Part shown: piece by piece, positions 10,459 to 13,413 of the stretch
How positions within the stretch are numbered: position 1 is the first letter of the stretch
Layout: every line of letters starts with the position of its first letter
Source of the DNA: Gammaproteobacteria bacterium
GTDB lineage: Bacteria > Pseudomonadota > Gammaproteobacteria > Pseudomonadales > Azotimanducaceae
Assembly (NCBI GenBank): GCA_002725285.1
Contig: PBRC01000013.1
Coordinates: 62,024-101,485 of the forward strand
DNA: 39,462 bases
Reading direction: 5' to 3'
Notes under the pieces: generated by a model
Databases searched by the model: none
What the model saw: only the letters and a program-made list of their open reading frames with translations
What the model was told of the DNA's origin: nothing
Made by a program: the position numbers and the translations under genes

Positions 10459-10625
10459 TCTGTTCTCGATGCCCGGACAAGGTGCATAATCCGGGAGTGC
10501 CCATTGTGTAGTATCCGGCCCCGGAGTCAGGCACGAACAGGTCTGAAGGATAGTTATATCAGGATAATAGGGTGTTTTTTAAACCGTGTTAAGATGAACA
10601 GGTTTGATTCAACTCTCTCAGATTT

Positions 10626-10638
10626 TGAATGTGATTCA
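10626..10638. promoter_or_regulatory. MetR-box-like palindrome TGAA-TGTGA-TTCA
   Basis: Exact match to TGAANN(T/A)NNTTCA, ending 18 bp upstream of the probable TTG start of the metR-like gene. Confidence 0.55.
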
Positions 10639-10656
10639 TTTAGCGGGGGATTAATT

Positions 10657-11589
10657 TTGATAGAACTACGACATCTGAAAACACTTGTTGCTCTGAGGGA
10701 TACTGGCAGCCTTGTAGAAGCAGCAGACAGGCTGTTCCTGACACAATCAGCCTTGTCCCATCAGTTAAAGGATCTTGAAGATCGACTGGACTGCTCCCTG
10801 TTTGTACGAAAGACCAAGCCCCCGAGTTTCACCAGTGCTGGTCGGCGTCTTTTGAATCTTGCCGATGAGGTCATACCCATGTTCAAGCTGGCTGAAAGAG
10901 ATATTGCCCGTCTGGCGGGCGGGGAAGCCGGTCGCCTGCACATCTGTATAGAATGTCACAGTTGCTTCCAGTGGTTGGTACCCTGCATTGACAGATATCG
11001 CGGTAACTGGCCGGAAGTTGAATTGGATCTGACTGGAGGTTTCAACTTCGCCCCCTTACCCGCGTTGGTTCGTGGTGATCTGGATCTTGTGATCACATCT
11101 GATCCGGTTGAATTACCAGGTATCAAGTACGTGCCGCTGTTTCGGTATGAGGCAATGCTGGCCGTGGATCCGCGACACAGACTGGCTGCAAAATCCTTTA
11201 TTGAACCCTCTGATCTGACTGACCAGGTACTCATTATGTATCCCGTTGATCGTGATCGGCTGGATATATTCAGCCGATTTCTCGATCCTGTTAACATTGA
11301 GCCCGCGTCTGTCAGGACTGCTGAACTTACCCCCATGATGGTGCAGTTGGTTGCCAGTGGCAGGGGCGTCGCCAGTCTGCCAAATTGGTCACTGGTCGAG
11401 TACATACCAAATAACACGATAGTGGCGAAGAAACTGGGAGAAAATGGCTTGTGGGCTACGCTTTACGCGGCTGTGCGCGAGGACCAGTACGCCGCACCTT
11501 TCATGGCAGACTTTCTTGCTACAGCGAATGAAACCTGTTTTGCCAATCTGGAAGGTATCAAAAGTGTGCAGGAGAAACCTGAAGCGTAA
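10657..11589 (+). CDS. metR: LysR-family regulator, MetR-like
   Basis: Track ORF opens at 10504; likely TTG start at 10657 after GCGGGGGA. IELRHLKTLVALRDTGSLVEAADRLFLTQSALSHQLKDLEDRL, ICIECHSCFQWLVPCIDRYRGNWPEVELDL, LWATLYAAVRE match MetR as recalled. Confidence 0.85.
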   Translation: MIELRHLKTLVALRDTGSLVEAADRLFLTQSALSHQLKDLEDRLDCSLFVRKTKPPSFTSAGRRLLNLADEVIPMFKLAERDIARLAGGEAGRLHICIECHSCFQWLVPCIDRYRGNWPEVELDLTGGFNFAPLPALVRGDLDLVITSDPVELPGIKYVPLFRYEAMLAVDPRHRLAAKSFIEPSDLTDQVLIMYPVDRDRLDIFSRFLDPVNIEPASVRTAELTPMMVQLVASGRGVASLPNWSLVEYIPNNTIVAKKLGENGLWATLYAAVREDQYAAPFMADFLATANETCFANLEGIKSVQEKPEA

Positions 11590-11599
11590 TCCGTTGCCG

Positions 11600-11644
11600 A
11601 AAACGAAAAAGCCCCGGCAGAATCGAATAGAAACGCCGGGGCTT
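11600..11644 (-). terminator. Rho-independent terminator (AAGCCCCGGC / GCCGGGGCTT stem, then TTTTTCGTTTT)
   Basis: 10-bp GC-rich stem 11609-11618 with 11635-11644; U-tract on the minus strand only. Confidence 0.85.
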
Positions 11645-11729
11645 CGTCAACGTATGGGGAGCAAGCTCCGAATCAATCCTGGTATATCAGGTTAACTCGG
11701 AGGCTCCCCGCATAGACTTACTGTCGATG

Positions 11730-11743
11730 GGATCACCTCCTTA
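11730..11743 (-). other. Perfect 14-nt complement of the 16S rRNA 3' end (TAAGGAGGTGATCC), i.e. full-length Shine-Dalgarno
   Basis: + strand reads GGATCACCTCCTTA, identical to the canonical 16S rRNA 3' terminus. Confidence 0.85.
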
Positions 11744-11848
11744 TACGATCAGGGTGCCTATCGGCGCGCTTGACGCCCCCCCTGGATAGGGCAACCAGCA
11801 CGATAGATTCATTTTTTTATATGAAACGAACCGAGAAAAGACGAGCGA

Positions 11849-11877
11849 AATTTAGCCTAGTATTTTCACCATGTCAA
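11849..11877 (-). promoter_or_regulatory. Sigma-70 type promoter TTGACA-N17-TAAATT
   Basis: Perfect -35, optimal 17-bp spacer, 4/6 match at -10. Confidence 0.65.
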
Positions 11878-11948: not shown

Positions 11949-12548
11949 TTAGGGAACCATCACCTGCACCTGCCACTTCTGATCGTTAGAATTTGACTCT
12001 CTAGTAAACAATCGTCGGTCGTGTAATCTGTCCTGACGATTAAGATCAAGCATGTCAATTCTGTTGGCCAGTAACTCTATTCCAGTAACTCCGTTTGGGG
12101 GTGCCATATCGTTCTCTGGCTGCAATTCCCCGATGCGAGCGACCTCGTTTTCAAGGCTCTGCCGTGAACCGATAACACTGCTCTGGGCAGCCACAGCAGA
12201 GTATAGATAGTCCAGAAGTTTCGCGCCATGGGGTCTTCTATACCAGTTGGTTTCAACCTCGTCCTGGTCCATGATCTGGTGCTCACCGCTGATACGATAT
12301 TGTCTCTGCTGACTCGGATACCAGAGCAATAGCTCATATCCGGCCTTGTCAGAGAGCAGTTGCCACTTGGGACTGGACTGGTTCATGAATATGGAAAATC
12401 GATTGTCGACGATGTCCCTCAGAACCAGCGTTCGAATCGAGGCGCTGCCTTGCTGGCTGGCAAGTGCCAGGAAACAGGTATCTGCGTTTGGATCATGTAC
12501 CTTACGCGCCTCGGTTCTATCGTTTTGGATTGATTCTATCGGGTCCAT
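11949..12548 (-). CDS. Pyridoxamine 5'-phosphate oxidase family flavoprotein
   Basis: FLALASQQGSASIRTLVLRDIVDNRFSIFMNQSSPKWQLL...YELLLWYPSQQRQYRISG; track ORF to 12677, likely ATG at 12548. Confidence 0.75.
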   Translation of the reverse strand: MDPIESIQNDRTEARKVHDPNADTCFLALASQQGSASIRTLVLRDIVDNRFSIFMNQSSPKWQLLSDKAGYELLLWYPSQQRQYRISGEHQIMDQDEVETNWYRRPHGAKLLDYLYSAVAAQSSVIGSRQSLENEVARIGELQPENDMAPPNGVTGIELLANRIDMLDLNRQDRLHDRRLFTRESNSNDQKWQVQVMVP

Positions 12549-12558
12549 GGGATCTGTT

Positions 12559-13413
12559 TTAGTTCTTATAGCTTGAGTACAGGGTTTGTATCCAGCTCTC
12601 TTCATTGATAAAACCCTGTCCCCAGGTATCCCATTGACTGCCCAGGCCGTTCTCAAGAATGGCCTCCAGGCTGTCACCCTTGCGGATTGCTGACTTTATC
12701 TGAGCGCTGGTTGTGTTGAGCATAGCCAGGTAGCGTTTCAGGTCGTCTTTGTTGGCCAGTGGTCCATGACCCGGAATCACCTGAGTATCGTCTTTGATGA
12801 GCGCCAATGCTGTTGCTATATTGTCAGCCATGCCATCAACAGAACCACCTGCGCCCAGATCAACGTATGGAAATCGATCTTTAAAGTAGTGATCACCCAT
12901 ATGCACGACGTTCGAGGTTGTAAAATAAACGATACTGTCACCATCTGTATGGCCATTAGGCATGTGTATTAGCTGAATTTCTTCATTGTTGAAATGGATT
13001 CGCGCTTGCTTTTCGAAGGTAATGACCGGCAGGGCGATTTTCTCAGCTGATGGTGTACCAGATACCATTCGGAGTCGAACATTGTCATGAGCGATAATGA
13101 GACTGTCTGCACCAAATGCCGCGTTACCGCCCGTGTGATCACCGTGGTGATGAGTATTCAAAAGGTATGCAGGTAATTCAGTACCAAGTTTACTGAGCGC
13201 TTGCTTGATCTTTGGCGCGAGGGGGGCAAACTGATCGTCGATCATCAGCAGACCGTCACTTCCTTTTGAAACACCAATGTTTCCACCAGCACCTATGAGC
13301 ATGTAAATCTTGTCGGTTAGTTGTTGTGTCTTGATCTCTACCGCAGCGAACCTGTCTTCTGCGAAACTCATATTTGCCAGGCTGAGTATCAATATCCCTA
13401 CAATTTTTCTCAT
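12559..13413 (-). CDS. MBL-fold metallo-hydrolase with signal peptide
   Basis: LLNTHHHGDHTGGNAAF, HMPNGHTDGDSIVYF, VVHMGDHYF, VIPGHGPL. Confidence 0.9.
   Translation of the reverse strand: MRKIVGILILSLANMSFAEDRFAAVEIKTQQLTDKIYMLIGAGGNIGVSKGSDGLLMIDDQFAPLAPKIKQALSKLGTELPAYLLNTHHHGDHTGGNAAFGADSLIIAHDNVRLRMVSGTPSAEKIALPVITFEKQARIHFNNEEIQLIHMPNGHTDGDSIVYFTTSNVVHMGDHYFKDRFPYVDLGAGGSVDGMADNIATALALIKDDTQVIPGHGPLANKDDLKRYLAMLNTTSAQIKSAIRKGDSLEAILENGLGSQWDTWGQGFINEESWIQTLYSSYKN

Follow-up and report, generated by a model that had tools for sequence, protein, structure and literature searches.

A conserved small RNA gene of Gammaproteobacteria with a full-length complement of the 16S rRNA 3′ tail and a non-AUG micro-ORF

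The 39,462-nt stretch of DNA analysed here (the window) contains, on its minus strand, a small RNA gene that is real, conserved and previously uncatalogued in Gammaproteobacteria. Its main feature, overlooked in an earlier sequence-only reading of the same DNA, is the segment UAAGGAGGUGAUCC, which complements the entire single-stranded 3′ tail of 16S rRNA (GGAUCACCUCCUUA) over 13–14 nt and is followed by a tiny ORF with a non-AUG start. Because of this match and this ORF, the RNA probably works through ribosome docking instead of ordinary protein production. On balance, it is best read as a free-standing 30S-docking micro-mRNA with IF3-sensitive initiation. The coordinates of all features are collected in Table 1.

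Table 1. Features of the small RNA gene and its neighbours (window positions), with the mini-mRNAs of relatives discussed in the text.
Feature	Position	Strand	Support or remark
Small RNA gene, predicted transcript of about 243 nt	11600–11842	−	Promoter and terminator positions; fold z = −5.45; homologs in 62/201 family genomes
−35 box TTGACA	11872–11877	−	Sequence; kept in homologs with a 16–18 nt spacer
−10 box TAAATT	11849–11854	−	Sequence; homologs read TATAAA/TAAATT
5′ pseudoknot domain, outer helix CGUGC/GCGCG and inner helix GCCC/GGGC	11763–11802	−	Both helices covary; 8/8 counted pairs with double changes (63 distinct rows)
Pseudoknot 5′ arm CAGGG(G), in the inner-helix loop	11779–11784	−	Complements CCCUG at 11754–11750
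Pseudoknot 3′ arm CCCUG	11750–11754	−	Complements CAGGG
UCGUAU, 5′ strand of the helix closing over SD, ORF and long hairpin	11743–11748	−	Pairs with AUACG at 11655–11651
UAAGGAGGUGAUCC, full-length Shine-Dalgarno (SD) that perfectly complements the 16S rRNA 3′ tail	11730–11743	−	13 nt unchanged in the first 12 homologs; 16S tails of relatives
Micro-ORF AUC GAC AGU AAG UCU AUG CGG GGA GCC UCC GAG UUA ACC UGA, 13 codons and stop	11687–11728	−	Start and stop positions conserved
Long hairpin GGGGAGC-CUCCGAG...UUCGGAG-GCUCCCC	11656–11709	−	95.9–96.7% of cells paired; covariation
Intrinsic terminator	11600–11644	−	Sequence; rule-based call in 55/64 homologs vs 12 shuffled
PNPOx-like gene	11949–12677	−	Same strand as the RNA, upstream of it
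LysR/metR-like gene	10504–11589	+	Sole convergent neighbour of the RNA
Candidate search motif for the RNA			GGAGGTGATCCNATY and CAGGG/CCCUG pseudoknot
L133 mini-mRNA			Peptide MSSRFAREGVN
L138 mini-mRNA			Peptide MSIRFAREGNQ
L135 mini-mRNA			Peptide VSSEKGCERVRALGMDVGAVEALRL
L108 mini-mRNA			Peptide VSMLLCLFLGPVN
L142–L146 mini-mRNAs, other families			MSSELCQILSGVGCRVGAQSNS and similar

The gene is bounded by a promoter of the sigma-70 type, whose two boxes are separated by a spacer of 17 bp, and by an intrinsic terminator; both, as well as the 54-nt hairpin between them, lie where the sequence-only reading had placed them. The segment from 11842 to 11600 folds at −100.1 kcal/mol versus −74.8 kcal/mol for shuffled sequences (sd 4.6), a value reached by 0 of 200 shuffles. 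The promoter hexamer pair by itself is within chance expectation for a window of this length. Across 65 loci, a TTGACA-type promoter is found upstream of the homologs at a fairly constant distance, with a mean best score of 9.8 out of 12 versus 7.9 in shuffles.

A DNA search of 58 relatives located the RNA in 12 genomes, the window's own counted among them. Wider genome scans with a covariance model built from these 12 sequences recovered it in 62 of 201 genomes of the family Azotimanducaceae, in single copy each, and in two genomes of a second family within the same order. Four further carrier genomes, belonging to three other gammaproteobacterial families, were retrieved with a broader model, and among 299 sampled genomes of the phylum only the window's own matched. 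The carriers from the named pattern scan are Pseudomonadales and Gammaproteobacteria MAGs, and this pattern matched the longer-spacing variant only. None of the 4227 families in Rfam 15 (including 6S, 4.5S, tmRNA, RNase P, RsmY/Z and CsrB) matched the window at or above its gathering threshold; the best sub-threshold scores were those of asX2 (15.6, cut-off 70) and RybB (14.3, cut-off 40). ARAGORN found no tmRNA in the window either, and an Rfam scan of the loci of 17 relatives returned tRNA and otherwise nothing. The earlier suspicion that the RNA is not 6S, 4.5S, tmRNA or RNase P RNA was thus borne out: the family is absent from Rfam 15, and no description of it was found in the literature searched.

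Several matches at the margin of the family deserve mention. The structural pattern of the RNA had no match in viral contigs; 112 stretches in such contigs (e.g., L147–L226) carry GGAGGTGATC, then 1–5 nt and RTGTCTA. Two small gammaproteobacterial genomes of 1.2–1.3 Mb (L095 and L089) show CCCTG..GGAGGTG(A/G)TCC followed by ATT and a 14-codon ORF, and may be distant members with an AUU start. Other pattern matches (L091, L094, L097 and L099–L101) resemble chance matches in coding sequence and were set aside. In L085 and L086, the EVIRINSQS codons of a leuA-like gene overlap about 25 nt of the RNA core sequence. Homology to leuA was discarded: the shared GGAGGTGATCC..ATTAATAGTCAGTC lies inside the motif EVIRINSQSGKGG, which we take to be LeuA, the search pattern fits this codon string, and the match is attributed to chance.

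Comparison among the homologs supports the helices CGUGC/GCGCG and GCCC/GGGC (or their type), the closing helix of the CGU/ACG type and the long hairpin. Strong covariation in relatives, which had been named in the sequence-only reading as a check on the gene, is found in both alignments that were examined. In that of 12 sequences, double changes occur at nine pairs, and every covariation measure lies above 500 of 500 shuffles with a single exception, which 7 of 500 reached. In that of 65 rows, 17 of 30 pairs show double changes (129 cells versus 26.8 in shuffled and at most 30 in slid controls); as these rows were fitted to the covariance model, the 12-sequence alignment is the cleaner covariation test. 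The closing helix, paired in 87.8% of cells, has double changes at all three counted pairs. The CAGGG/CCCUG pseudoknot pairs in 99.7% of cells and is near-invariant, and hence is supported by conservation without covariation. The 5′ arm and loop of the long hairpin contain the 3′ part of the ORF and its stop codon. A different first hairpin had been proposed earlier (TGCCcTATC/GATAGGCA); it is not a conserved fold, since many homologs do not have it, and it gave way to the CGUGC/GCGCG, GCCC/GGGC and CAGGG/CCCUG pairings that the comparison backs instead. Mimicry of 16S helix 45 by CCAGGGGGAACC was likewise abandoned, as the segment changes to other pairs in homologs.

The 16S-tail complement varies least of all segments of the RNA across the aligned matches. 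Its 13 nt (AAGGAGGTGATCC) are unchanged in the first 12 homologs, and the GGAGGTGATCC part is near-invariant in all aligned matches. The tail was read from family relatives, the window genome's own 16S gene being absent from the assembly: in the same family the 16S tail has the sequence GGATCACCTCCTT, and two relatives (G011 and G064) each carry both this RNA and a 16S gene bearing the matching tail. In the window's genome the 13-mer has a single occurrence. Its other matches in the family are mostly the 16S genes themselves, confirming the tail sequence, and a reversed control pattern gave one match over 91 family genomes. With the tail taken from these relatives, the pairing reaches far past the GGAGG core, as in an extended SD, and the duplex is predicted at −25.4 kcal/mol versus −13.6 kcal/mol for a shorter core SD. 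Full matching stops at the end of the single-stranded tail, where the A that would continue the complement is mostly replaced by C in the RNA. In thermodynamic folding of 53 homologs, with pseudoknots outside the model, the SD is partly open (mean unpaired 0.36–0.42). Docking of the predicted RNA on the ribosome is implied by this complementarity. In E. coli, bS21 would sterically hinder an extended SD helix (PMC13009471), and for this reason full-length pairing on the gammaproteobacterial 30S is not assured.

The start codon of the micro-ORF, AUC or AUU, stands 1 nt after the 16S complement in nearly all homologs, so that a conserved start of the AUU/AUC/AUA kind, as in infC, characterizes nearly all distinct sequences; GUU occurs in one, and one subgroup has a slightly longer spacer. 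Three distant members from two other families (L087, L088 and L090) begin with AUG. The ORF spans 13–15 codons across homologs. Of 14 diverse representatives, 13 have their first in-frame stop 30–48 nt downstream, compared with 4 and 0 in the other frames, against a null of about 0.2 per representative that, the representatives being related, yields no strict probability. Among 45 distinct sequences, 44 have the stop at 33–45 nt, and a 3-nt insertion in one subgroup preserves the frame. The peptide follows the consensus INSQSIxGASELx over many genomes. Single-base differences are synonymous in 9 of 20 cases in the ORF frame versus 7 and 5 in the others, which is no clear excess, and the second half of the ORF mostly doubles as a helix arm. 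Thus, the start position and the ORF length are conserved, and selection on the peptide lacks a clear synonymous signal. The infC gene of this genome, encoding IF3, has no AUG, GUG or UUG in its start region and apparently begins AUU AAG AAA GGC (L259, G000:C63); therefore, this organism very probably uses AUU initiation. The E. coli infC likewise begins with AUU.

Genomes of the family that lack a model match to the RNA contain other mini-mRNAs, which end in a terminator and bear the identical full-length SD (GGAGGTGATCC). Besides this SD, they share Met/Val-Ser as first residues and a hairpin followed by a T-run further downstream, and they occur in unrelated gene neighbourhoods. Their ORFs comprise 11–26 codons, and the peptides are unrelated beyond Met-Ser.

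From these elements, the following mechanism may be proposed. The sigma-70 promoter would drive a terminated RNA of about 240 nt, whose pseudoknotted 5′ domain and closing helix would present UAAGGAGGUGAUCC to the 16S tail. Pairing with the whole single-stranded tail (13–14 bp) would bring the first codon of the 13–15-codon ORF, AUC/AUU or, in some distant relatives, AUG, close to the P site; the ORF is predicted to terminate inside the next hairpin. IF3 discriminates against AUU and AUC start codons. Given a maximal SD and a start codon from the class that IF3 rejects, 30S subunits would be held in slow or IF3-dependent initiation, a proposal that draws on the infC AUU start, on IF3 discrimination and on the extended-SD precedent of S. 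aureus. The RNA would then act in trans by occupying ribosomes, either as a sink for free 30S or IF3 or as a sensor of them, and not via its peptide. Hindrance of the long SD helix by bS21 is a caveat to this scheme, or possibly part of the sensing.

The autonomy of the gene can be judged from its neighbourhood. In most carriers PNPOx is followed by the RNA and then by a convergent metR; it had earlier been supposed that the PNPOx gene was the convergent one, and it is in fact co-directional with the RNA. In the window, the PNPOx-like gene directly precedes the RNA on its own strand, which would suit a cis element, either a 3′ UTR belonging to that gene or a leader or attenuator of a downstream gene. 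However, the RNA has its own conserved promoter, the terminator follows right after the ORF, and the downstream gene is convergent, an arrangement that leaves a riboswitch or cis-leader no regulated gene in the same transcript. Moreover, the RNA is on the opposite strand relative to both neighbours in L023, L025, L032, L057 and L063 (genus g24) and in L040, where it follows metR and is convergent with the PNPOx-like gene, and carriers in other families have unrelated gene neighbours. Promoter and terminator stay with the RNA across these neighbourhoods. Because it is inverted with respect to both neighbours in one genus, the gene is an autonomous unit; the flipped orientation rules out cis-regulation of a neighbour gene, and the cis element as a whole is very improbable indeed. 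The earlier description as a stand-alone sRNA or tiny-peptide mRNA agrees with the lack of an Rfam match, the own promoter and terminator, the covariation, the single copy and the orientation flip, and its two halves seem to hold together in a structured RNA with a conserved non-AUG micro-ORF.

Two other readings may be considered. A micropeptide gene would have the 13-aa product, Met-(D/N)SxSxxGASELx, as its effector, the leader and the non-AUG start keeping synthesis low or conditional. The consensus INSQSI-x-GASEL-x in many genomes, the conserved stop position and the use of AUG by distant members are in its favour, but the synonymous differences show no clear bias, much of the ORF also serves as a helix arm, and the distant and parallel mini-mRNAs encode peptides that show no relation past Met-Ser, so that we regard it as unlikely. 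Quite unlikely in our judgement is a conventional trans-acting sRNA, base-pairing or protein-binding, in which the SD-like stretch would contact a partner other than 16S rRNA, for example CsrA or C-rich sites in mRNAs, while the ORF would be incidental. Such an RNA could well have the strong structure, the own promoter and terminator, the GGA-rich single strands and the short unpaired conserved linker AUCAAUAGUCAGUCUAU seen here; against it, the full 16S matching ends where the single-stranded tail ends, and this reading accounts neither for the conserved ORF stop nor for the AUG variants.

The 30S-docking micro-mRNA, the reading preferred here, would have wider implications. It is conceivable, and we put it forward only tentatively, that the family represents a new class of regulatory RNA, a 30S trap or sensor in which an IF3-rejected start codon times the hold on the subunit, with the mini-mRNAs of sister genera as its replacements. 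The occurrence of such an RNA suggests that, in some lineages, an RNA serves to titrate free 30S subunits or to sense them. No description of free-standing bacterial RNAs that act on the ribosome via 16S-tail pairing was found in the literature searched. A natural, conserved RNA that unites the maximal possible SD with an unfavourable start codon and hardly any coding content is, furthermore, a clean construct for studying what limits initiation: SD strength, IF3 proofreading and bS21 hindrance.

Compared with known systems, the RNA works like a free-standing translation-initiation region. In S. aureus, infC (AUA), cvfC1 (AUU) and ccpN (AUA) combine an extended SD with a conserved AUU/AUA start, and AUU/AUA starts with an extended SD give about 10% of the output of AUG (PMC13009471). 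The RNA described here shares with these mRNAs and with infC AUU regions, the infC of its own genome included, the very long SD and the AUU/AUA-type start associated with low, conditional initiation. Unlike those normal protein-coding mRNAs, it is free-standing and consists of a 13–15-codon ORF that ends in a hairpin, with a terminator immediately behind. Dual-function sRNAs are likewise short, structured and equipped with their own promoter, terminator and small ORF, whereas the present RNA matches no known family, has a full 16S-tail complement as its core and starts with AUC/AUU. The mRNA-like domain of tmRNA also consists of a pseudoknot, a short reading frame and a stop codon in a hairpin; the likeness is one of layout only, since the present RNA has an SD and neither a tRNA-like domain nor a resume codon. 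Finally, archaeal Val-tRF, a ribosome-binding ncRNA, is a tRNA fragment located at the decoding site (PMC11009984) and resembles the RNA in its proposed action, occupancy of the small subunit. Neither SD pairing nor an ORF is described for Val-tRF, whereas the RNA described here has a 16S-tail complement and a micro-ORF.
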